Virus record (IMG/VR): IMGVR_UViG_3300044971_004299
Span: 1 to 20,067 of that record
Length of the DNA: 20,067 bases
Strand: one strand, 5' to 3'
DNA from: a virus
The translations under genes and the position numbers were made by a program. This document shows, in pieces, positions 4,543-20,067 of this stretch. Under the pieces are notes generated by a model. The model was given only the letters and a program-made list of their open reading frames with translations. It was not told where the DNA came from and ran no database searches. Position 1 is the stretch's first letter; the number at the start of each line of letters is the position of its first letter.

Positions 4543-4629
4543 TGGTGCCCGAGATGGGATTTGAACCCATAAGGTGTTGCCACCCGGGGGGTTTAAGCCC
4601 CCTGCGTTTGCCGGTTTCGCCACTCGGGC
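4543..4629 (-). tRNA. tRNA-Leu(UAA), CCA encoded
   Basis: Reading the reverse strand gives a complete class II tRNA. The acceptor stem GCCCGAG (4623-4629) pairs with CTCGGGC (4547-4553), followed by discriminator A and an encoded CCA. The anticodon stem is GGGGG/CCCCC around the loop CTTAAAC, so the anticodon is UAA (4593-4595). A long variable arm (GGGTGGCAACACC region) and a TTCAAAT T-loop complete it. The identity is Leu, reading UUA and, by wobble, UUG. It sits inside the minus-strand operon between the exonuclease gene and the 167-residue gene. Phage tRNAs usually supplement codons rarer in the host than in the phage. Confidence 0.95.
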
Positions 4630-8034: not shown

Positions 8035-8244
8035 GTGAAAAAAGAAAACAACTTGGATTTTGCGGGAGTAACAAGATTGTCAAAAATCATCGGTTTTCTC
8101 ACTCGCGAAAATATTGCACACATGCTTATGGTTGCTTTTGTCATTTTTACTTGCATTGGAGCGGCTCTAATTTATCTTCCCGCTGGTTTTATTACATTGG
8201 GAGTTACAGCCGGACTTTATGCCTACCTTCTTGGATCTGAATAA
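8035..8244 (+). CDS. small two-helix membrane protein
   Basis: A 69-residue protein from a GTG start with AAGGTG five bases upstream. Residues 27-48 and 50-67 are strongly hydrophobic and probably form two membrane helices joined by a tight Pro-Ala-Gly turn; the N-terminus (MKKENN...) is basic and likely cytoplasmic. Its TAA overlaps the portal ATG by one base. Small membrane proteins just before the portal are seen in many actinophages, without known function. It is too short and lacks features to call a holin with any confidence. Confidence 0.75.
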   Translation: MKKENNLDFAGVTRLSKIIGFLTRENIAHMLMVAFVIFTCIGAALIYLPAGFITLGVTAGLYAYLLGSE

Positions 8245-10430
8245 TGGCTTGGAATAAAACAGAGAATAAGCAACTTGGCGTCGATCAGGAGGTGAAGTCC
8301 TCTTTAGGTTTGGGGGCGCCAATTTCCTTGAATCCATCGATGGTGGGACGAGGGTACCGAGACGGGTGGGACATTGAACGGGCCTACCGGGAAGGTGTAC
8401 AGCGAGTAACTTGGGTTTTTCGCTGTATTGACGCCATTGCTGGAAATCAAGCCCGACTCCCCGTAGTCCTGAGAAAAGACAATTCACCACAGGGCGAGAT
8501 ATTAAGTAAATCTAATGAAGTTTTAGATCTACTTAACACTAAGTCCAACGAGGGGGAGAACTCCTTTATTTTCCGCTTCCGACTGTCAAGTCAATTGCTG
8601 ATGAGCACTCGCGGCGTGTTCATTGAAAAGGTGCGCGGTCGGGGGGGCAAACTCATTGCCCTGCATTTGCTGCCCCCCCAGCACACATCCCCAATTCCAG
8701 ATCCACGGAAATTTGTTTCCGGATTTGAAGTTTTACTTCCCGGCGGCGGGAAGAAAATTATTAGACCAGAAGATGTTGTTTGGATTCGACGCCCACATCC
8801 GATTGATCCTTATCTTTCTTTGACGCCAATGGAGACTGCTGGCGTGGCAATTGAAATTGAAAATCTTGCAAAGATTTACAACAGGAACTTTCTTTACAAC
8901 GACGGACGTCCGGGTGGGCTCTTGGTTGTGCGTGGAGAAATGGATGAAGACGACAAGGAAGAACTTCGTAGTCGTTTCCGTGGGAACCTGAATAGAGCGG
9001 GCCAGACCTCCGTTATCGCTTCAGACGATGGAGTCGACTTCGTTGACACCTCATCGAACCCTCGCGATGCCGCTTACATCCAAATGCGTCAAATTACAAA
9101 AGAAGAGATTCTGGCCGCTTTCGGTGTACCTGAGAGCGTTATTGGCAATGCCGCCGGTCGAACATTTTCAAACGCTGCAGAAGAGGGTCGTGTTTTTTGG
9201 ATGGAGACCATGCAGCCCCATTTGGAAGTTATCGCTCGGGCTTTAGACGAACTTCACGACCAGTACTACATTGATTTCGATACTTCCAGTGTTCCAATTC
9301 TTATTGTTGCCAAGCAGGAGCGGCAACGGTATTTGATGGATGAATTTGGAAATGGCTTAATTACGGGCAATGAGTACCGTGAAGGAACGGGTCGAAGCAA
9401 GATCGAGTCCGAACTTATGGACTCAATGCTTGCCAATCCGAACTTGACGCCAATTGGAAATACCGAAAAGCCTTTTAATGCCGCAGCCCCTCAAACTCCC
9501 GTAGACATGGTTCCAACAGGGGAAGCCGCAGCCCCCGAAGTTCAGGCCGAAGCCCCAGAAACGGCAGTACCGGAGCAGACGGAAATTCCCGCAGAACCCG
9601 CCCCTGAGGAAGAAGCGACGTTGACGGCTCCGATCCTTTTTAAGGATTTGCTCAACAAGGACCAGCCGGACGAGTGGGAAATCAAGTCAAGTCAATCAGT
9701 TGACAGGTGGACGGAAATTTTTGATCGCTCCTTGGAGCGCCTTTTTGAACGTCAGCAAAGAGTTGTGCTGGAGAAAGCAATGGGAGCAAAGGCCCGACGA
9801 GCCATTGCGGCTGGGGAGTTGCCGGTAGATGCAATTTTCGATAAAACCGTATGGAATAAGCAACTCGATGAAGACCTTCGCCCTGTGATTACGGCGATTG
9901 TGCGAGATGCTGCTGACATGGGGACGAGCCTGTCAAGCAAAGTTGATAAAACGGATTTTGTTTTTGATGACGAGGCCCTAAAGCAGTATGTGGATGCCCA
10001 GATTTACAGAATCCAAAAAGCCAACGAAACGACAAAAGAAGAAATTGCTTCAGCGATTTTAGTTGTACTTCTGCTCGGCAGCGACGAAGACAAGATGGGT
10101 ATTCTCCGCACCGCTCTTGGAGCAATTTTTGCCAACTTAATTGGCGCTCGCGGACGCCGCATTGCAGAAAATGAAACGCAAACTGCTTTTAACGCTGGAA
10201 CTTATTTTGCTGCTGGCGCTGCGGCAAAAAATAGCGCGACTGGAGTTAAAAAAACTTGGCTAAGTCGACGTGATGGAAAAGTTCGAAGTGCTCATGCGGC
10301 GCTACATGGGAAAAAAGTTGCTTTTTCAGAAGGTTTCAAGACCGATGGATCGCTTTTGCGATTCCCCGGAGACCCCCTTGCTCCACCCCATTTGACGATT
10401 AATTGTCGTTGCAGGCTTCGATTCGATTGA
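8244..10430 (+). CDS. portal protein fused to MuF-like head morphogenesis domain
   Basis: A 728-residue fusion. Residues about 30-410 match the HK97-type portal: an RVTWVFRCIDAIAGNQARLP opening, the LHLLPPQ and PEDVVWIRRP strands, a PMETAGVAIEIENLAKIYN stem helix and ILAAFGVPESVIGNAAGRTF. Residues about 415-475 are a Pro/Ala/Glu-rich linker. The C-terminal part (about 480-728) is a MuF/SPP1 gp7-like minor head domain, with ETQTAFNAGTYFAAGA and the diagnostic end: SRRDGKVRSAH (674-684), FPGDPLAPPHLTINCRCRL near the C-terminus. The portal forms the dodecameric DNA entry ring; MuF-like proteins ride with it and can carry effector domains or enter the host. Separate genes are the norm, so the fusion fixes one MuF copy per portal subunit. 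No extra toxin or enzyme domain is visible after the MuF motif. Confidence 0.93.
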   Translation: MAWNKTENKQLGVDQEVKSSLGLGAPISLNPSMVGRGYRDGWDIERAYREGVQRVTWVFRCIDAIAGNQARLPVVLRKDNSPQGEILSKSNEVLDLLNTKSNEGENSFIFRFRLSSQLLMSTRGVFIEKVRGRGGKLIALHLLPPQHTSPIPDPRKFVSGFEVLLPGGGKKIIRPEDVVWIRRPHPIDPYLSLTPMETAGVAIEIENLAKIYNRNFLYNDGRPGGLLVVRGEMDEDDKEELRSRFRGNLNRAGQTSVIASDDGVDFVDTSSNPRDAAYIQMRQITKEEILAAFGVPESVIGNAAGRTFSNAAEEGRVFWMETMQPHLEVIARALDELHDQYYIDFDTSSVPILIVAKQERQRYLMDEFGNGLITGNEYREGTGRSKIESELMDSMLANPNLTPIGNTEKPFNAAAPQTPVDMVPTGEAAAPEVQAEAPETAVPEQTEIPAEPAPEEEATLTAPILFKDLLNKDQPDEWEIKSSQSVDRWTEIFDRSLERLFERQQRVVLEKAMGAKARRAIAAGELPVDAIFDKTVWNKQLDEDLRPVITAIVRDAADMGTSLSSKVDKTDFVFDDEALKQYVDAQIYRIQKANETTKEEIASAILVVLLLGSDEDKMGILRTALGAIFANLIGARGRRIAENETQTAFNAGTYFAAGAAAKNSATGVKKTWLSRRDGKVRSAHAALHGKKVAFSEGFKTDGSLLRFPGDPLAPPHLTINCRCRLRFD

Positions 10431-10540
10431 CGGTTTATAAAGTTTATTGAAACCTCTTTTAATTTATTGAAACCCTTCCATGTGGGTATTGGTACTGCTC
10501 TAACCTATTGAGATACGCCTTAATTCCACAAGGTAGGGAA
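10431..10540. promoter_or_regulatory. AT-rich intergenic region with 20-base-period direct repeat
   Basis: The gap between portal and protease contains a perfect 12-base direct repeat TTTATTGAAACC at 10443-10454 and 10463-10474, spaced exactly 20 bases (about two helical turns), which would suit a regulator binding one face of the DNA or an upstream promoter element. The first copy also pairs with GGTTT at 10432-10436 to make a weak AT-rich hairpin followed by TCTTTTAATTT, so a weak terminator is possible. AAGGTAGGG (10530-10538) is the ribosome site for the ATG at 10541. No confident -10 box. Confidence 0.35.
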
Positions 10541-13500
10541 ATGTCAACCGATTTTCAAACAAAGTCTATTCCCGGTCAGTTAAACGTTGATCAGGCAGAG
10601 GGAATTGTTGAATGCTTCGTTGCGGGCATTGGCAATAAAGACTCAGTAGGAGACATTGTTCTTCCCGGCGCATTCGAGGGAAGCCTAAAGCGCAGGAAGC
10701 CACGCGTCGTTTGGGGGCACGACTGGAACCATCCGATTGGCCGAGTTCTGGAAATTTACGAGGTTGGACCCAATGACCGCCGCCTACCGGAAAAAATGCG
10801 CGCTGCTCGAATCGGGGGGCTGTTTGCAAAAGTCCAGTTCAACCTTAAAAGCGAAAGAGGTCGAGAAGCCTTTGCAAATATTTCATTTTTTGGGGCTGAA
10901 CAAGAATGGTCAATTGGCTACAAAACTATTCAAGCCGTTTACGACAACACCCGACAGGCCAACCTTCTAAAAGAAGTTGAACTCTACGAAGTCTCCCCCG
11001 TCCTCCATGGGGCCAATCAACTGACTGGAACTATTTCGATCAAGTCCGACGACGCTAAAGACCGTGTCACTTCTTTTAAGAAGTCCAAGTGGCCGATGTT
11101 CGACCGAGCCTATGCGGAACGAATTAAAACTGAACACCCAAACATCTGGGACAAGGGTGGCAACATTAAGGGTGATGACCAGTACACAATTCTCACACGT
11201 ATTGCTGAACAGGGCGGCACAGCCAAAACCGAAGATCAGATTCAGGCATTGGAACTTCGCGAAGCGTGGATCGCTCGTCATCTAAAGGATTTTCAACTTC
11301 CGGGCGTAGTTGCCCAAATGAAGTGGCTTGCGATTGGTTCCCGTGGCGAAGGACACATGAAGGACGTTGTCCGGGAAGCAATCAGCAAGTCTTCGGATGG
11401 GAAGGCTGAAGCAGCATGCCCAATCGCAACTAGGGACGTTGCGGTGAATCTGGAAAACCGTCAAAAGGCTATTGAGTCTGCTGGCTATGGGCCGTTAAAC
11501 CCTGAAGAGCCAAACCTAGATTTTTGGGCCGGAAAGGCTCGTCGCTGGGACGTTTCAACTGAGGATGCCCAAAAGCAAAAGTGTGGTAATTGTGCCGCTT
11601 TCGTGAAGACCGAGCGAATGATGGACTGCATTAAACAAGGTCTCGCAAACGAATCTGGAAATGAAGCCGAAGGCGTAATTGAAGCAGGTGACCTCGGCTA
11701 CTGCGAAGCGTTTGATTTCAAGTGTGCTGCTGCCCGTACTTGTGATGCTTGGATCGGTGGTGGACCTGTTACTAGCGAAAGCGAAGAGCAGGAAAAGGGC
11801 TATGGCTATGGCAAGCCACATAGCGGCGAAAATCGTGAAGAATTGTTAGAAATGTGGCGACGTCTTTCCGGTTACGCCGCCGACCGCGAAGGTTCGTCCG
11901 ATGACGACCCTCGCGAAGAATTAGATGAGATTGCTGAATCCGCAGGCATGTCGAATCCCGCAATGGGCAGGCAGGCTGTGCTGGCCCGCTCACTTGCCAA
12001 TGAGTTGCGAAGCCCTGTAAGAATTCGCACCATGACATCGAATACTGTTGTTTTCGATGTCATGGATCCGTCCGATCCAGATGACGTGACCACTATGAGG
12101 TCTTCTTGGCACGCCGAAGAGGGGCGTGTAATGATCGGCAAGCCAGAACGCGTAAGAGTCGAAACCGTTTACGTTCCAATGGAGGGCGGCGGTGGACAAG
12201 CGTATTCCGGCGATGCGGAAAAAGGCCTTGGTGCAACTATCGGCGGTGGACGCTCGCGTGAAGGACAAAGCGAAATTGACCGTGACGGCGACGGGGTTAT
12301 TTTTGATGGCACCCCCGACGAAAGACCCGCCCCTAAAAAGCGCCCCCAGCAAGAGTCTCGCCCTGCAGCAAACCGGGCCACCTCAAACTCCAAGGCTAGT
12401 TATCACCGGGCCAGATGGAAGAATGGTGAAAAAAGTTTTTTCCATGAAGATGGCAGCGGCATCATTCAAGATTCTAACGGCAAGGAGTATTCAGTCGGCA
12501 ACTGGGAAGAAGCGCCAAGCAAGGTGTATTCCAACGTCCCAAAAAATCTACGCTCCAAGGCAAAGCAGGCCCGTGAAGCGGCCCTCAGGAAGGCTCATAC
12601 TGAGCGGTGGAATCGCGAACTTGGTGGTGCGGGATACGAAGATATTCTGGCTCGGGCGCAGAAAAAAGCCTCACTTGGTCGGGACGCAAATCTTCCCAGA
12701 TCATGGAAATTTAACGACAGCGACGGGCACACCACGACAGTTGAGGAGGACGGATCAGGCGTTGTCCGTCATCGTGATGGTGGTGTCGTGTTTTCCTACG
12801 GCGGGTTTGATGATCCCGAAGCCCTTGCCGAGACGCCTGCCGAGATGCGTAAAAGATTGCAGAAAATGCGGGCATATCAGTGGGCAAGCAATCAGGTAGC
12901 AAGAGCCTCTTTGGAAAAGAGTGCGGATAGCGACATGGACGTAAAGGCTGACCCTCGGGCCGGAATTCCCCAAGAGGCCATTACGGGCGACATTCTGCGA
13001 GGCTACGGTCCACGACGCGGCAACCTCGAACGACTACTTCGGTACTGGCGACCAATTATGAAAAAGCCCGGCGGGTTCCGTCGCTGCCTTGTCATTCTCG
13101 CCGACCACCCCGAGTTGTACCCGTTGCAGAACATCTGCGCGTGGCTTCACCACGAGACCACCGGCTTGTGGCCGAACGAGGGCTGCCACCACCCGGGTAT
13201 GAAGAACTGTCGTCGCAAGTTGCGTGGGGTGCGGAATGGGTCGCTGTGGAGCGATCGGGAGTTTAGTGCTCGCCTGCGCCGCATGGGCGACGACAAGAAG
13301 GGCATGGACTGGCAGGAATCTGACGACGGCTACGGGGACGTGACCGATGACGATGTCAAGTATGCCAATCGCGTTCTTAATGAGTTTCTAATGGAGGAAA
13401 AAGAGTTTGCCTCCTATCTTTCGGAGGAGAAGAACTGGATGCACGTCGGCGACGATCAAAACGAGATGGAGATTGAGCACGATTGGGTGAAGCCGGATGG

Positions 13501-14767
13501 CTATGCCGACAAGCCCGGCGGCTGCGGTTGCGGGTGTTCCGGCAAAGATTCGTCCTCACCGTACAAGTCTGCGGATGGCGGTGTTGACGGGCTGGGGGAA
13601 AAGGTTGGTCGAGCGTTGAATGTCCGTAATGCTGAGCGGATTGCCGAAGCGGTGCGGCTGCTCACTCAGGTTCTCGGCAACCAAGCCCCCACGATGCAAA
13701 GCAAGGGTGCCGCAGTAATCGTGTCGGCACCTACCGAGTCGTTGTTTGACTTGCGGGAAACCCTTGACCCCGTTATTGACTACTACGGCTTGGACGCCGT
13801 GGTCGCCGAGGATGGGGTGCACATCAATGGGGTTGAGTCGGAGGCTGCTGCGAAAGCATTGGACAGGGCCATTGATTCGTTTGTGGATATTCAAATTAAG
13901 GAAATGTTCGACGCTGTAGAAACCAAAGGTATAGGTCGAGGCTTGCGTCGCCTGCTTCCCGGCGCTGGCGGAGGCCGAGGCGGGCGAGGTGGCCGAAGGG
14001 GTCGCGGGGGACGAGGCGAACGTTTTGATCCCAACGCCTACGACGGCAATAGTGATGGGATGGTGCAGGACAACACACCTTTCGAGCGTCCTGCGACTCC
14101 TCGTGCTGGCCGTGCTGCTGGGGCTGTAGACGGTGGCGGAAAAAACAAGCCAGACAACAAGTGGCTAGAAACGCAAAAAGCGTTAAGGTCTCTTGGTTTG
14201 TCCGACCAAATGGTCCTTGGGCGTGCCACCGAGACCGACGTAGATACCATTGGGTTCGCGGTTCGGGAAATTCAGGCAAGCATGTCTGATGATTCGGGAA
14301 GTGGCCGTCGCGTAGAGGTTACAGACGGGCAAGTGGCCGACCAGTTACTTGATGACCTTCAGGCCGCCGGTGCCAAGTTCGACGACGAGCAACTGAAAAA
14401 GATTAGAAGTGCGATCGAAGATGTTGCTTCAAGGTCGACAAGAGGTAAGCCTCTGTCGCAACAGGAAATGAAGGAACAGAGGAAACAAACTGCTCGGCGG
14501 GTTGCATTTAGAGAACTTGGCCTTGACGGAACTGTTTTGAGCGACAAAGGACCGTCGGAAAAAGAGTGGGACGCGCTTGAACGTCTTGTGGAAGAGATTG
14601 AGGCAGACGGACCGGCTAACCCCGATGGCAGCCGACGCGAACTTGAAGCCTACGACATTTATGACTCAATTTACGATCAAATTGGTCGTGAAAACATGAC
14701 CGATAAGGAAATGGCCAATTTGCAGAAAATTGCCGACGCGATTATTCGGGATCGTGAAATGGATTAA
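10541..14767 (+). CDS. HK97-type prohead protease-led giant multidomain head protein
   Basis: 1408 residues from the ATG at 10541; a TTG at 10508 is in frame, but AAGGTAGGG favours the ATG. Residues 1-165 are an HK97/S78-family prohead protease: GDIVLPGAF, catalytic H60 in WGHDW, S124 in EWSIGY, and ELYEVSP (147-153). Then come a helical region (about 175-300), a six-cysteine domain (C348, C351, C363, C388, C395, C401) reminiscent of HiPIP-like phage domains, a calcium-loop-like motif (D580-D589) ending TPDERPA, two ~100-residue repeats (EDGSG at 636 and 736), a W/R-rich domain starting GYGPRRGNLERLLRYW (821), a CGCGC cluster (995-999), an RGG-rich stretch (about 1134-1160), a second calcium-loop-like motif (1168-1177) ending TPFERPA, and a charged helical tail. 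Usual proteases are about 200-300 residues. The extra parts may be scaffold or be released by self-cleavage. The protease call is firm; the rest is unknown. Confidence 0.9.
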   Translation: MSTDFQTKSIPGQLNVDQAEGIVECFVAGIGNKDSVGDIVLPGAFEGSLKRRKPRVVWGHDWNHPIGRVLEIYEVGPNDRRLPEKMRAARIGGLFAKVQFNLKSERGREAFANISFFGAEQEWSIGYKTIQAVYDNTRQANLLKEVELYEVSPVLHGANQLTGTISIKSDDAKDRVTSFKKSKWPMFDRAYAERIKTEHPNIWDKGGNIKGDDQYTILTRIAEQGGTAKTEDQIQALELREAWIARHLKDFQLPGVVAQMKWLAIGSRGEGHMKDVVREAISKSSDGKAEAACPIATRDVAVNLENRQKAIESAGYGPLNPEEPNLDFWAGKARRWDVSTEDAQKQKCGNCAAFVKTERMMDCIKQGLANESGNEAEGVIEAGDLGYCEAFDFKCAAARTCDAWIGGGPVTSESEEQEKGYGYGKPHSGENREELLEMWRRLSGYAADREGSSDDDPREELDEIAESAGMSNPAMGRQAVLARSLANELRSPVRIRTMTSNTVVFDVMDPSDPDDVTTMRSSWHAEEGRVMIGKPERVRVETVYVPMEGGGGQAYSGDAEKGLGATIGGGRSREGQSEIDRDGDGVIFDGTPDERPAPKKRPQQESRPAANRATSNSKASYHRARWKNGEKSFFHEDGSGIIQDSNGKEYSVGNWEEAPSKVYSNVPKNLRSKAKQAREAALRKAHTERWNRELGGAGYEDILARAQKKASLGRDANLPRSWKFNDSDGHTTTVEEDGSGVVRHRDGGVVFSYGGFDDPEALAETPAEMRKRLQKMRAYQWASNQVARASLEKSADSDMDVKADPRAGIPQEAITGDILRGYGPRRGNLERLLRYWRPIMKKPGGFRRCLVILADHPELYPLQNICAWLHHETTGLWPNEGCHHPGMKNCRRKLRGVRNGSLWSDREFSARLRRMGDDKKGMDWQESDDGYGDVTDDDVKYANRVLNEFLMEEKEFASYLSEEKNWMHVGDDQNEMEIEHDWVKPDGYADKPGGCGCGCSGKDSSSPYKSADGGVDGLGEKVGRALNVRNAERIAEAVRLLTQVLGNQAPTMQSKGAAVIVSAPTESLFDLRETLDPVIDYYGLDAVVAEDGVHINGVESEAAAKALDRAIDSFVDIQIKEMFDAVETKGIGRGLRRLLPGAGGGRGGRGGRRGRGGRGERFDPNAYDGNSDGMVQDNTPFERPATPRAGRAAGAVDGGGKNKPDNKWLETQKALRSLGLSDQMVLGRATETDVDTIGFAVREIQASMSDDSGSGRRVEVTDGQVADQLLDDLQAAGAKFDDEQLKKIRSAIEDVASRSTRGKPLSQQEMKEQRKQTARRVAFRELGLDGTVLSDKGPSEKEWDALERLVEEIEADGPANPDGSRRELEAYDIYDSIYDQIGRENMTDKEMANLQKIADAIIRDREMD
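12393..12900 (+). repeat. tandem ~100-residue repeat coded within the protease gene
   Basis: Two consecutive segments of the encoded protein share the pattern Trp-(Lys)-...-EDGSG-[IV]-[IV]-...-G-...-S-x-G-...-P-...-R-rich helix-...-W. The EDGSG anchors fall at residues 636-640 and 736-740 of the 1408-residue protein, an offset of exactly 100. The copies have diverged strongly at the DNA level, so the duplication is old. Each unit looks like a small beta module followed by a basic helix. Confidence 0.6.
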
Positions 14768-14802: not shown

Positions 14803-14889
14803 TAGCAAGTAAAGTAGGAAAACAGCACGTCCACATGGCGTGCGTCAACAGAAAGCAAGACAAACGCCATGCAGGATCAGGAGACTCCA

Positions 14890-16197
14890 ATGGACGATAT
14901 GGACGAGAAGGCGGTCGTTCGGATTGACGCCGAAGGCGCTGTAGTGAAGTGCGCTAAGGGCGTCACCGATGGTTGCGGTTACAAGGCCGGTGCCAAGGTG
15001 TGCGGCAAGTGTGGCGCCATGGCGGTGCAGGTTAAGGGCGATGACGTTGACATGACCGAGGATTACGAGGGCATGGGCGACGAGATGCCCAAGAAGCAGA
15101 AGCCCAAGCGAGGCAGGTCAATGGGCAATCCCCAAGAACTGGACGGGTATGACGAGGAAGACCCCTCCGCCGAAGCAATGGATGAGTCCGATGAGGTCCC
15201 CGATGAGTCAAACGGCGAAATGGGCGAAACCCTTGTTGAGGCCATGAGCGAACCTGACGTTCGCCGCCGCATGGCTGCCCGCAAGCGACGCATGGCTTCG
15301 ATGAATGTGAAGAGTGCCGAGTGGGGCGACGACGCTTATCTTTGCGGCTTGCAGATGAAAATGCTGTCCGGCGATTCGCAACCCTGTGCCGCCTGCCCGG
15401 GCGGATGCGCCCCAGAAAGCGATCTTCCCACCCTTTTGGAAGTGCAGGGACTCGCCGAGCAGATCAGCGGAGGGAAGGTGCTTTCGTCTGGTTACTCGGA
15501 TGCCGTCGATTTGTACATTGTGGATGTTGAGCAGAAGGACGGACGTCTTAGCGAAATGTACTTTGATGGCGCTACCGCCGAGTGCATTCGGTGGGAAAAA
15601 CTTGATGAAGCGCTGATTGGCGAAAAGTCCGCACAGTTGCCAATGGCCATTGTGTCCATCGATGAAGCGGCCCAAATTGCCACAAAGTCCCTCCCCGGGG
15701 AGGTGGTCGCCGTTGACGCCGACGTCTTTGAGGGATACGACGTTTATGCCGTTGAGATTGAAGGCGCCGACGGCAAGTCCTACGACGGCTTCGTCTCCCT
15801 TAACGGCGAACTTCTTGGTTACGACGAATACGATCCGACGGAAGCCGCAGACATTGATGCCGAAACTTCCGAGTACGCCTTGAAGGCCGCCTATTCCACC
15901 GTTCAGCGTGAACGCATGGCCGAGACCGGCGAAGCGATGGAAGACGGCTCCTACCCCATCAAAAACATGGAGGACCTTAAGAACGCCATTCAGGCTTACG
16001 GTCGGGCAAAGAACAAGCCGGCCGCTCGCATCCACATTATGCGGCGCGCCGAAGATCTCGATGCCATTGACATGATCCCCGAGAACTGGCTGTCGGGCAA
16101 AGAAGCCGATGCCGAGGAAAAGGCGGAGTTCGACCCCAAGTTTTTGGCCTCGCTTATGGAGTTTGAGTTGCTGGCCACCGAGGAAGATCGCGACTGA
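14890..16197 (+). CDS. scaffold-position protein with zinc-ribbon-like, CxxCPGGC and PepSY-like domains
   Basis: 435 residues from the ATG at 14890, chosen for AGGAG six bases upstream; an earlier ATG at 14869 lacks a good site. The protein is very acidic. Modules in order: a zinc-ribbon-like motif (C21, C29, C38, C41; ending VCGKCGAMAV), an acidic low-complexity stretch (about 50-115), a basic MAARKRR patch, a cysteine segment (C152, then C166, C169, C173 in CAACPGGC) leading into an alpha/beta domain (about 178-245), a PepSY-like domain (about 252-315: SIDEAAQIATKSLPGEVV, then YAVEIEGADGK) and a C-terminal domain (about 352-402: DGSYPIKNMEDLKNAIQAYG then RAKNK) that I recall from the ends of phage scaffold/prohead proteins (I believe DUF6582). 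Its place after the protease, acidity and tail suggest a scaffold. PepSY domains are known as M4 protease inhibitors, so it may restrain proteolysis; that is inference. Confidence 0.75.
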   Translation: MDDMDEKAVVRIDAEGAVVKCAKGVTDGCGYKAGAKVCGKCGAMAVQVKGDDVDMTEDYEGMGDEMPKKQKPKRGRSMGNPQELDGYDEEDPSAEAMDESDEVPDESNGEMGETLVEAMSEPDVRRRMAARKRRMASMNVKSAEWGDDAYLCGLQMKMLSGDSQPCAACPGGCAPESDLPTLLEVQGLAEQISGGKVLSSGYSDAVDLYIVDVEQKDGRLSEMYFDGATAECIRWEKLDEALIGEKSAQLPMAIVSIDEAAQIATKSLPGEVVAVDADVFEGYDVYAVEIEGADGKSYDGFVSLNGELLGYDEYDPTEAADIDAETSEYALKAAYSTVQRERMAETGEAMEDGSYPIKNMEDLKNAIQAYGRAKNKPAARIHIMRRAEDLDAIDMIPENWLSGKEADAEEKAEFDPKFLASLMEFELLATEEDRD

Positions 16198-16224: not shown

Positions 16225-18309
16225 GTGTGGACAGGCAGCGAACCTGCAGAGGCGGCTTCCGTAACTGTAAATGCGAAGATGCTTAATGGCGGCTCTTACA
16301 CGTTAACGCCAGCCATTTCAGATGACGCTCCAGCAGTGATCCGTCAACCGTTAAACGGTGATCGCAACCTTGTGAATTTCAAGGCTCTCATGCTTTGGAA
16401 CTATTTGGAGCAGGCGCCGTTTGACGCAAAAGTTGGCCTCATCACAAGTCGGTCCGGTGCCGGCAGAGTTGTTCAGTCCATTGGGTCGGTAGCGATACCC
16501 GGCGACATGAGCGATATCCGTTCGCCGGTACGGTCTACCGTCTATGAGGTCCTCACCCCCGGAGGTGGAGGAGGACGAAACCGCCGAAATCTGTTGGGTG
16601 CTGCCATTGGAGGTGAACGGGGGGCGGTGCGCTGCCCCGCGGGTTATGAGTTTGGTGGCCGTTTCGCTACCCGAGGATTTGGGAACTGCGGTCGACGATT
16701 GTTCGATGTCCTCGGGGGGCCTAATGTTTCTCCGGGCCGCCGGTTGGGCGGCAATATGGTGGGACTATTGCGAGCGGAGCGCAACAGAGTGGGGGCTGGG
16801 GGGTACGGCAACCGAACAGTGCAGATTCAGCGCAATGCCCAAATCCCAAGAGTGGCGGCTTCAAACGAGCAAAAGTTCAATGATGGTTTGGAGCAGGCTG
16901 TTGCCACGCTCGCCAATCCCGATATTGATGGGATGTTGTTGGTGCGTCGCGATGGGCAAATTCTGCGTTCTGCTGTAAGCGCCAATGTGCTGACGCGTGT
17001 GGCCGAAAACCCCGACATGAAAGACGGCGCCCTTGTCGCTTCTGTCGCCGACCCATCAGCGTTAGGCGACGAAGAGGTGCCTGCCATTTGGAAAAGTGGA
17101 GTTCGGTCGGTGGCGTTGGCGCTTCCCGGCGGAGGCTCCATTAGAGTTTCTCGGTCGCGCGATTTATCGGCAACCGATAAGCGGCGACTTGGTCGGGTGT
17201 GGGCTCAGGCAAACAACAGATCCGATGGCCGATACGACTACGGTCTTCGGCTGCGACGTGCTACGGAAAAGTCCAATGGGCTTCTTGTTTATGAAGAGAA
17301 GTTTCCGAACATCCAGAAGCCCAGTGAAACTGTCACCATTTCGGAAACGGCAAACGAAGAAAATCGCATTTCTGTGCAACGCTGGGTGCACGAAACTTAT
17401 CTTGCCGAAAAGGCCCCCGGGCGAGACGCCAAAGACAAAACGTGGAACGTTGTTGACGTTGCCGGTCAGGAAACGGCTATTAGCACGAACGAAATTGCCG
17501 ACGCCAAGGCGGCCGTCCAGCATTTAAAGAATGGCAAGCCCGTGAACGACGTGCCATCAGATTTGTTGGATAACGCCATTTCTCAATCAAAAGTATTTCA
17601 GTCTTCGCGAGTTCGGCCCGGCGTGACGCTTTTGGAGAGATCGAACGGTGAAAAATGGTGGCGAGTAAATTCGTCTGATGATTACATGCATCTCGCGGAA
17701 CGAATTTCTGCCGATGTAAACGGTGCACTCGGGCTGCGTACTTCAACGGTTAAGTTTATTGGCGCTGGTGCCCGTCGCGATGTGCTGGTATCCCATCCAG
17801 AAAGCGACGACCAAAGGATGCGTCGCTTAACTGTGAATGAAATGAACTCGCAGGATCTTTTGCGAACGGTAGTGAGCGACTGGTTGGTGGATCGACGCGA
17901 CCGCAATCCAGCGTCACTTGTTAGCGTTGGGCGTGACGATAATGGGCGTCTTGCCTCAACTACAAATGTTGACGCCGCTTTGGTTGGGCTGTCCACCGAA
18001 GAACTGAAGCGTCGCCGCCAACTGGTGTTGGGCGATTTTGCCGGACAGTCATTCAATGCGTTGGCTGCCGACCGATTCCGCTCGGGCAGCGTTTCGCAAA
18101 AAAAGGCTTTGCTGGAACTTTACGACGATTTGCTGAAACGCGCCGCCAACTTCAATTGGGATGACTACATCAGTCGGCTTGGGTTGGATGGTGGTTTGTC
18201 GCCCGGCGAACGAGCCCACGTTGAACTGGTCAAAGCGTTGTACGAGCGGCGGCTAAAGAATTTGCGTTCAAGCCGCAAACAATTTTTGTCAATTTTCGGA
18301 CTGTCGTAA
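16225..18309 (+). CDS. large virion-cluster protein with Cys module and degenerate kinase-like domain
   Basis: 694 residues from a GTG start with GGAG upstream. I do not recognise a named family overall. The N-terminus (1-110) is mixed alpha/beta, ending in DIRSPVRSTVYEVLTPGG. A Gly-rich linker leads to a cysteine module at 137-156: C137-P-x-G-x3-G-G...R...N-C155-G. After a Gly/Arg linker comes an alpha/beta region (about 215-300). The C-terminal third resembles the HipA/PI3-kinase-like fold: NGEKWWRVN (474-482), then a helix and LGLRTSTVKFIG, then WLVDRRDRNPASLV (553-566), in the place of the kinase DRxxxN loop, and NGRLASTTNVDAAL (573-586), in the place of the metal-binding Asp strand. The expected N-lobe Lys, catalytic-loop Asn and metal Asp look replaced, suggesting a pseudokinase. 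It overlaps the next ATG by one base (TAATG). Confidence 0.7.
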   Translation: MWTGSEPAEAASVTVNAKMLNGGSYTLTPAISDDAPAVIRQPLNGDRNLVNFKALMLWNYLEQAPFDAKVGLITSRSGAGRVVQSIGSVAIPGDMSDIRSPVRSTVYEVLTPGGGGGRNRRNLLGAAIGGERGAVRCPAGYEFGGRFATRGFGNCGRRLFDVLGGPNVSPGRRLGGNMVGLLRAERNRVGAGGYGNRTVQIQRNAQIPRVAASNEQKFNDGLEQAVATLANPDIDGMLLVRRDGQILRSAVSANVLTRVAENPDMKDGALVASVADPSALGDEEVPAIWKSGVRSVALALPGGGSIRVSRSRDLSATDKRRLGRVWAQANNRSDGRYDYGLRLRRATEKSNGLLVYEEKFPNIQKPSETVTISETANEENRISVQRWVHETYLAEKAPGRDAKDKTWNVVDVAGQETAISTNEIADAKAAVQHLKNGKPVNDVPSDLLDNAISQSKVFQSSRVRPGVTLLERSNGEKWWRVNSSDDYMHLAERISADVNGALGLRTSTVKFIGAGARRDVLVSHPESDDQRMRRLTVNEMNSQDLLRTVVSDWLVDRRDRNPASLVSVGRDDNGRLASTTNVDAALVGLSTEELKRRRQLVLGDFAGQSFNALAADRFRSGSVSQKKALLELYDDLLKRAANFNWDDYISRLGLDGGLSPGERAHVELVKALYERRLKNLRSSRKQFLSIFGLS

Positions 18310-20067
18310 TGGCACGCGTCCTCCTGTTGAACGATACGGCAACGAAGACTTTATTTGCTGTCGTTTCCGAGAATGACAATATGTTGCACTTCCACGGTGT
18401 GACTGAGGCCGGTAAAGAATGGGCTCGGTGGGTGGAGTCACAGAGCGAACCTGCGCGCGACTTGACCGAAGTGGCGAAAAGCGCAGATTATGGCCTCACT
18501 GCGGACGGGCCAAAAGTTTTAACAAAAACGCTTCGCATTGAGTTAAGCGATTATCTTCCTTTAGACGCTCCGTCGGCCAAAGCCCTTGGCGTGGAGTTGC
18601 GACAGAGAGAAATTGACTACAGGGCATTGGCTGCAGTCAGCGACCGCCGGCTCGCCGCTATGGCATATGCCGTGAAGCAACCCCGAGCGTTTTTTGATCC
18701 CGATTTGGGTCCTAGCGGCGGGTTTCGATGTCCTTTGGGAACCCCCAACGGCGGCCAGATCACTGATCGGTTTGGAAGGAACTGCGGTTTAGGCGTTGCC
18801 CGTCGGCTCGCCAATAGAATTGATGGCGGTAATGGCGGTCTGTCTCGGCAGGTGGGTTCGCGCAGGCAATCCCGTCCGGATAGTGTGAGCGAGCGGGTTG
18901 AGGACGCTAAGCCCACGTTGCGAAGCCGTCGCAGCGTATCGGGCGGGCGAATTAGTGGGGCTGGCGGCGCCAGCGGTTCAACAGTCGACTTGGCAGGAAG
19001 CGATCGTTCAGAGACGGTTTCTATTGAACAGTTGCGGGAAGAAAATTTTAAATTCTTTCAAGAGGTCGATCTCGCTTTCGAGGGGGCAAAGAACGATAAA
19101 AGTGTTGGCGAAAAGGAAATTGACGAAATCGTCAAGCAGCGAAAAAAGCAAATTCGCGAGGTGCGAGAACGGGCGGATGCCGAAAAAGATCGCAGGAATC
19201 GGGCGGAGTACGAAAAGCGCTACGATTACCTATTTAACGATGTGCAGCGTTGGACCCGTTTGCGGAAAGAGCGCGATGAAACCGGAAAGCGGGTTCAAGC
19301 GCAACTAAATCGAGAACGGCAGTTTTTGACGGCTATAGAAATGCAGAATGACGACTTAAGAGAACGGATTGAGCGGGGAAACATTTTTGATCTGGCGGAG
19401 GCCCAAAAGCGACGTGACGTCGCAAGGGGTTCGGCAGAAGATTTGCGTCTGGCACTGAGCGATGAAGCGCTTGACCCTGAAGTTGCCAATGTGCTTTGGA
19501 AGCAGATTGCGGCTTTTGAGGAAAGCGCCGACGTGTACCAAGAAATGGTTGACGTAGGGGAAAGGATGAGGGCAAACCCTGTGCCCGATCTTCCCGAAGG
19601 CGGGAAACGGCCTAAACCGGCTCGAGGTTTAGCGGTTTTGGCTAGCGACCCTGATGGCGCCCTGCTGGGGCGACGTGAGACAAAAAACGGTTACGCTTTG
19701 CCTGTCGTGGTGCCGGTTGGGCATAAAAACATCTATAGCGCTCGTGACGCTGTTCGTGCTTTACAAGAAGACAAAATTGATCTTGCAGACGTCCCTGACC
19801 AATTTCTTGCCGAGTCGATTGCGACGGCGAACAAACGTTTTGAGTTTTGGTTTGATGGAGACGGCGTCAATGGTCTCACCATGTACAAAGACAAGGTGAC
19901 GGGCAAGGGGGTTGGCATCAAGTTTTTGGGCGGCGAGGGTTACGGAGCCCAAGAGGACTTGAATGAACTTGTCGCCCATCATTTAGCCGAGCGGTTTGGT
20001 TTCCCAATGGGGTCTATTCGTGTGGGTGGAAAACCGGATCTTGCCGCTGGGGAAAAGGCGGCTGCCC
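18309..20067 (+). CDS. large virion-cluster protein with Cys module, coiled coil and kinase-like N-lobe, partial
   Basis: I translated 586 codons by hand from the ATG at 18309; the frame is open to the window end, so the C-terminus is missing. Residues 1-130 are an alpha/beta head unlike the previous protein. At 141-160 is the same cysteine module as in the previous gene (C141-P-L-G-x3-G-G...R...N-C159-G). A Gly/Ser/Arg-rich linker (about 170-235) is followed by a long charged coiled coil (about 240-455). From about 515 the sequence fits the N-lobe of a HipA/PI3-kinase-like fold: KRFEFWFDGDG, then KGVGIKFLGGEG with K538, a helix with E553 (NELVAHHLAERFGF) and GSIRVGG. Unlike the previous protein, the Lys and Glu are present, so this copy may be an active kinase; the catalytic loop lies beyond the window. 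Confidence 0.7.
   Translation, partial: MARVLLLNDTATKTLFAVVSENDNMLHFHGVTEAGKEWARWVESQSEPARDLTEVAKSADYGLTADGPKVLTKTLRIELSDYLPLDAPSAKALGVELRQREIDYRALAAVSDRRLAAMAYAVKQPRAFFDPDLGPSGGFRCPLGTPNGGQITDRFGRNCGLGVARRLANRIDGGNGGLSRQVGSRRQSRPDSVSERVEDAKPTLRSRRSVSGGRISGAGGASGSTVDLAGSDRSETVSIEQLREENFKFFQEVDLAFEGAKNDKSVGEKEIDEIVKQRKKQIREVRERADAEKDRRNRAEYEKRYDYLFNDVQRWTRLRKERDETGKRVQAQLNRERQFLTAIEMQNDDLRERIERGNIFDLAEAQKRRDVARGSAEDLRLALSDEALDPEVANVLWKQIAAFEESADVYQEMVDVGERMRANPVPDLPEGGKRPKPARGLAVLASDPDGALLGRRETKNGYALPVVVPVGHKNIYSARDAVRALQEDKIDLADVPDQFLAESIATANKRFEFWFDGDGVNGLTMYKDKVTGKGVGIKFLGGEGYGAQEDLNELVAHHLAERFGFPMGSIRVGGKPDLAAGEKAAA

Follow-up and report, generated by a model that had tools for sequence, protein, structure and literature searches.

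A two-Cys-tagged cassette with a predicted pseudokinase and a putative kinase in the head module of an uncultured phage

Two adjacent genes in the head module of an uncultured phage encode p694 and p586, in which a first-pass annotation saw a degenerate and a possibly intact kinase domain. The locus raises the question of whether both proteins carry a kinase fold, and whether they work together as a regulator and its enzyme.

Gene layout and search for relatives

The window, which is the whole stretch of DNA analyzed here, is a 20067-base fragment from IMG/VR, and position 20067 is the end of the record itself. The features of the locus are listed in Table 1. Both proteins are encoded among virion genes, between the portal and protease genes on one side and the major capsid gene, seen in relatives, on the other, which agrees with the head-module location proposed earlier. 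The p694 stop codon and the p586 start codon overlap by one base (taATG). On their own, p694 and p586 gave no convincing match in Pfam or PHROGs. The motif positions reported by the first-pass annotation were exact, including SDWLVDRRDRNPASLV and TTNVDAAL in p694 and GVGIKFLGG in p586 (aa 534-542); K538 within it and the helix Glu E553 are likewise exactly placed. A tRNA-Leu (taa) gene is also present in this phage fragment (window 4543-4629, minus strand).

Table 1. Features of the window around the p694 and p586 genes.
Feature	Position	Strand	Basis
Portal-MuF fusion (upstream context)	8244..10430	+	Pfam and PHROGs
Prohead protease with long extension	10508..14767	+	Pfam, PHROGs, DNA comparison with L019
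442-aa protein	14869-16197	+	ORF
p694, 694 aa, head-module protein: tag A and predicted C-terminal pseudokinase domain	16225..18309	+	ORF; 49-member family
Tag A in p694, RCPAGYEFGGRFATRGFGNCG, aa 136-156	16630..16692	+	Pattern and profile match
Linker and predicted pseudokinase domain of p694, about aa 415-693	17467..18306	+	Profile match, AlphaFold, Foldseek
KWWRV in p694, V481 at the N-lobe Lys position	17653..17667	+	hhalign register, column counts
SDWLVDRRDRNPASLV, p694 aa 551-566, predicted degenerate catalytic loop, S564 replaces Asn	17875..17922	+	hhalign, column counts
TTNVDAAL, p694 aa 579-586, metal-Asp strand, N581 at the Asp position	17959..17982	+	hhalign, column counts
p586, 586 aa, incomplete: tag B, helical middle, putative kinase N-lobe	18309..20066	+	ORF open at contig end; homology to intact kinases
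Tag B in p586, RCPLGTPNGGQITDRFGRNCG, aa 140-160	18726..18788	+	Pattern and profile match
Linker and putative kinase N-lobe of p586, about aa 436-581	19614..20051	+	Profile match, E 1.2e-34
K538 and E553 codons of p586	19920-19922; 19965-19967	+	Near-invariant columns of live family

Direct single-sequence searches with p694 and p586 against viral contigs and cultured phages returned no relatives, and the neighboring portal and capsid genes were therefore used as the route to them. The portal led to 28 contigs, and a near strain's capsid gene led to 80 loci. Among the ORFs obtained from these neighborhoods, p694 has 20 distinct relatives and the p586 family has many complete members. A tag search of genome contigs for the host gave no confirmed match. 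The p586 gene runs to the end of the record at 20067, and an exact 28-mer from its end was found in no other viral contig; its own C-lobe is thus out of view. In the near strain L019, whose sequence reaches the capsid gene, the p586 slot is occupied by a different protein without a kinase. The close complete relatives L054 (1658-4414), L083 (2463-5420), L044 and L043 contain the DRH..N and PID motifs after the N-lobe, and we infer the C-lobe of p586 from such full-length relatives.

Other features were observed in these head modules. The motif D-x-D/N-x-D-G-x-V/I-x-D/E-G/N-T, often followed by xxERP, was matched 39 times and never in shuffled ORFs. Two copies are located in window 10508-14767, and others in L014, L016, L036, L047, L079, L093 and further loci, in proteins that are otherwise unrelated; the motif is possibly a calcium-binding or processing signal. 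A protease fusion (L016:12363-17117, plus strand) contains a further kinase-like stretch recognized by eye (YLVK, NEMSAH, VGDNVIL, RIDVGG), on which Pfam is silent. A Nudix domain is encoded by an ORF, 2580 aa or longer, that lies downstream of the protease (L022:10653-18392, plus strand), and a 734-aa protein encoded just downstream of a kinase gene (L036:859-3063, minus strand) carries a zeta-toxin domain (Pfam E 1e-20) and DUF5824.

Predicted kinase folds of p694 and p586

The C-terminal region of p694 (aa 401-694) was modeled by AlphaFold with 20 relatives (pLDDT 87.1, pTM 0.85). The model has a five-stranded N-lobe, a helical C-lobe and a catalytic-loop hairpin. The first-pass annotation had proposed a fold search of residues 460-694 within this region; in Foldseek, all 28 PDB matches at E≤0.001 were kinases, namely PI3Ks, CtkA or CotH kinase. 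Pfam returned no kinase match for p694. The TM-scores to solved kinases are modest (about 0.3-0.45 for p694, and 0.3-0.47 overall for the models of p694 and L054), so that the likeness of p694 to these kinases is distant and at the level of the fold. Based on the model, the C-terminal region of p694 is predicted to adopt a kinase fold.

At the positions that characterize active kinases, p694 has V481 instead of the N-lobe Lys, S564 instead of the catalytic-loop Asn, and N581 instead of the metal Asp, in line with the earlier description of the first copy as degenerate. The metal-Asp strand NVDAAL does hold an Asp (D583), and the profile alignment places N581 at the metal-Asp position. None of the 49 members of the p694 family (the dead family) has all six catalytic-site residues (K, E, D, R, N, D): 45 have S or T at the Asn position, 34 have Asn for the metal Asp and 42 have a residue other than Lys at the Lys position, in counts that, like those of the live family below, had redundancy removed by containment only and include close relatives more than once. 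Other residues in this region are retained, with D552 (p694 numbering) present in 49/49 members, R560 in 48, D556 in 43 and R558 in 39. The full-length family shares 22-48% identity with p694 and has twelve invariant columns. As it has none of the three active-kinase residues (Lys, Asn and metal Asp), p694 is predicted to be catalytically dead.

The second copy fits the earlier claim of an intact N-lobe, as K538 and E553 of p586 fall in near-invariant columns of its family (the live family). In L054, the closest full-length relative modeled, the near-invariant columns are K107, E129, D206, R207, N211 and D227, and this set is complete in 75 of 78 full-length domains of the family. The L054 kinase model (pLDDT 81, pTM 0.85) has CtkA as its top Foldseek match, and L054 also matches Pfam PI3_PI4_kinase (PF00454) with 31.1 bits, compared with a cut-off of 27.1. 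The same Pfam family is matched at E≤0.1 by 16 of 25 live-family members. From these alignments, p586 appears to contain the intact N-lobe of a PI3K/HipA-like kinase and is probably a working version of the fold. This is the one recognized enzymatic domain in p586, and the longer relatives, up to about 3600 aa, are mostly without annotation. One live-family member (L077:1-1104, plus strand) reads KEGRTR at the six positions, with GR...T for DR...N and R for the final D, apparently an independent loss of the catalytic site.

The PI3K/HipA-like fold proposed for both regions was borne out by the fold search on p694, and by the profile match of p586 and the model of its relative L054. The motif resemblance is not a chance one: the positions align to a family with near-invariant K, E, D, R, N and D, and the independent fold prediction for the p694 region also retrieves kinases. 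The dead and live families aligned in hhalign with 99.1% probability (E 1.1e-18) and with the catalytic motifs in register. In a six-frame scan of whole records, the live kinase profile matched dead genes down to E 9.7e-13; pairwise BLAST of p694 against p586 gave no match. These profile comparisons indicate that the two families are homologous. The contrast between degenerate and intact sites is genuine and holds at the level of whole families. The two proteins are built alike, with a two-Cys tag towards the N-terminus, then a conserved linker, and a PI3K/HipA-like kinase domain at the C-terminus; this common architecture suggests that they are paralogs.

The window families share their fold with the PI3/PI4-kinase and HipA-like kinases (PF00454, PF20613, PF07804; Helicobacter CtkA). 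Like these kinases, the live family has the N-lobe Lys, the helix Glu, the DRH..N loop and the metal Asp in a PID motif. Unlike them, the window families are tagged multi-domain phage proteins of the head module, and the p694 branch appears dead. Foldseek against viral models (BFVD) retrieved other tailed-phage proteins with the kinase fold, some annotated as portal or ADP-ribosyltransferase. These include A0A6J5MJB0 (annotated PI3/4-kinase catalytic domain) and A0A6J5S481 (annotated portal), and they are automatic annotations or uncharacterized models. A kinase fold in phages is therefore not new in itself. A literature search of partial coverage found nothing relevant on pseudokinases of phages or on a PI3K/HipA-like head kinase in a phage.

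Two-Cys tags and cassette exchange

Both p694 and p586 carry a version of a tag of about 21 residues, RCPxGxxxGGxxTDxxxxxCG. This pattern had 84 matches in real ORFs and 0 in shuffled ORFs. Form A (like RCPEGYQYGGRFTDSRLSTCGxKLF) occurs together with the dead domain in 47 non-redundant proteins, and form B (like GGWRCPxGTRYGGQITDRFGRNCGWGVARRLAN) occurs with the live domain in 58 proteins. No crossing of tag and domain was found, with 0 tag-B proteins carrying the dead domain and 0 tag-A proteins carrying the live domain. Another 27 tag-A and 40 tag-B proteins, some of them truncated, have neither kinase domain. The mean column identity is 70% for tag B, compared with 21% for the kinase alignment. 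Scanning for tag B gave 94 confirmed places, which were reduced to 63 distinct loci. Pfam returned almost nothing for the tag-B proteins without a kinase. One of these (L083:5702-8332, plus strand) matches an Eco57I-type methylase domain weakly (E 0.0078, below the cut-off).

Comparison with the near strain L019 shows how these genes vary. The window shares 98.7% DNA identity with L019 up to position 13243 and then diverges abruptly inside the protease extension. Position 13243 is a recombination breakpoint against both L019 and L005, where DNA identity falls from about 99% to under 82%. Beyond it, p694 shares 49% protein identity with its L019 counterpart, and the sole DNA-level match of the p586 gene to L019 is a 94-base stretch over the tag. 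The p586 slot of L019 is filled by a tagged protein of 1042 aa with long proline-charged repeats and without a kinase. The difference between the window and L019 is the pattern of a cassette in which the cargo is replaced and the tag is kept. Such a tagged cassette with swapped cargo recurs across a large group of uncultured phages.

Based on portal and capsid, the closest cultured phages are the Gordonia phages Gray, GMA6 and ScarletRaider and the Brevibacterium phage Cantare. In these four phages the same interval encodes large unknown proteins as well as an annotated ADP-ribosyltransferase toxin, an RNA ligase, or both. Neither kinase profile found a kinase domain in Cantare, Gray, GMA6, Gilgamesh, ScarletRaider or DalanDe. 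In Streptomyces phage Gilgamesh, gene 48 (L142:4979-18853) encodes a 4624-aa protein in the corresponding portal-to-capsid interval.

Gene order and possible roles of the cassette

At loci with several genes in view, one tag-A gene is usually followed by one to three tag-B genes, upstream of the major capsid gene; these tag-A, tag-B and capsid genes are the conserved neighbors at the loci. Some loci have an extra small kinase gene upstream of the tag-A gene. In 50 records scanned whole (E<1e-30), the dead domain was found in 34, the live domain in 24 and both in 17. In all 17 records with both, the two are on the same strand and the live domain is downstream of the dead one.

The reading we favor, and consider fairly probable, is that the cassette encodes head-delivered cargo, with p694 as a dead component, p586 as an exchanged cargo kinase, a tag that directs proteins to the virion head, and the host as the site of phosphorylation. 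The tag-A protein p694 would have lost catalysis and be kept under constraint as a widespread head-module component, probably as a binding or scaffold domain. The tag-B protein p586 would be one of a set of rapidly exchanged tagged cargo proteins, many with a complete kinase site. The tag most likely directs such proteins inside the virion head or onto its surface, and early in infection the kinase with tag B would phosphorylate a host target, like polyvalent or Alt-like effectors. Virion packaging, delivery into the host, kinase activity, its target and the paralogy are what we infer from the gene and protein comparisons. A more specific form of this reading is tentative: the tag-A protein, usually with a pseudokinase, may be a fixed adaptor of an undescribed head-cargo system in which interchangeable tag-B proteins, PI3K/HipA-like kinases in many cases, are loaded into the head for delivery, with the tags as recognition signals.

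The nearest published concept is that of polyvalent proteins, which are large, contain enzymatic domains, are encoded among virion genes and are thought to be injected with the DNA (PMC5512222). The cassette resembles them in being coded among virion genes, and its neighbors include a zeta-toxin-like kinase. The kinase of polyvalent proteins belongs to the Ser/Thr/Tyr superfamily and is without the C-terminal subdomain (PMC5512222, Iyer et al. 2017), whereas that of the window family is predicted to be PI3K/HipA-like with a C-lobe. In the passages of PMC5512222 consulted, neither the two-Cys tag nor the dead/live pair appears. Phage T4 Alt is among the enzymes that travel in the phage head and are injected together with the DNA, as described in the same account (PMC5512222); the enzyme of the present cassette is a different one and would likewise be packaged.

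Alternatively, the kinase fold may have been repurposed for head or scaffold assembly only, with any kinase activity directed at phage head proteins rather than at the host. The location of the genes between the protease and capsid genes fits this, as does a dead domain that is widespread and conserved without a kinase, but the six catalytic-site residues are kept in nearly all live kinases while the remainder diverges strongly, and exchange of a slot between near-identical phages typifies host-directed cargo more than structural proteins. We consider structural repurposing unlikely.

Pseudokinases commonly regulate active kinases, and p694 could be a dedicated allosteric regulator or scaffold of the adjoining kinase. 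The adjacent, overlapping genes and the invariable placement of the dead domain upstream of the live one are consistent with such a role. The obligate regulator/enzyme pair of the first-pass annotation is not supported, however: 17 of the 34 records with a dead domain are without a live kinase, several of them showing the whole interval to the capsid gene (records may be fragments), and at no fewer than nine loci (≥9) the tag-A protein that precedes the tag-B kinases is complete but has no dead domain. Neither domain therefore requires the other, and dedicated regulation is improbable.

Some atypical kinases have a different catalytic activity, and the dead domain might have gained one through its own conserved D552, D556, R558 and R560. 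This is very unlikely: D552 and R560 look ancestral and structural, as these positions hold an Asp and the DRH Arg in the live family, and the dead family is without a conserved Lys or metal ligand. A chance resemblance, or a decaying copy without a real kinase fold, would suit the empty BLAST and Pfam results for p694, but is almost certainly wrong given the confident kinase-matched fold, the profile-profile E of 1e-18 and the conserved full-length family, which rules out gene decay.

The tag-led cassette is the most interesting result. A fold is now assigned, by prediction, to proteins without any Pfam or PHROGs match, and the live and dead domains in one gene cluster offer a naturally replicated comparison. 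The short, strongly conserved tag on divergent proteins is a direct handle for search, deletion and reporter fusion. To our knowledge, the choice of enzymes that a phage takes along in its head is understood in few systems. Since the tagged cassette recurs with swapped cargo, it may be a means by which these phages carry enzymes into the host.
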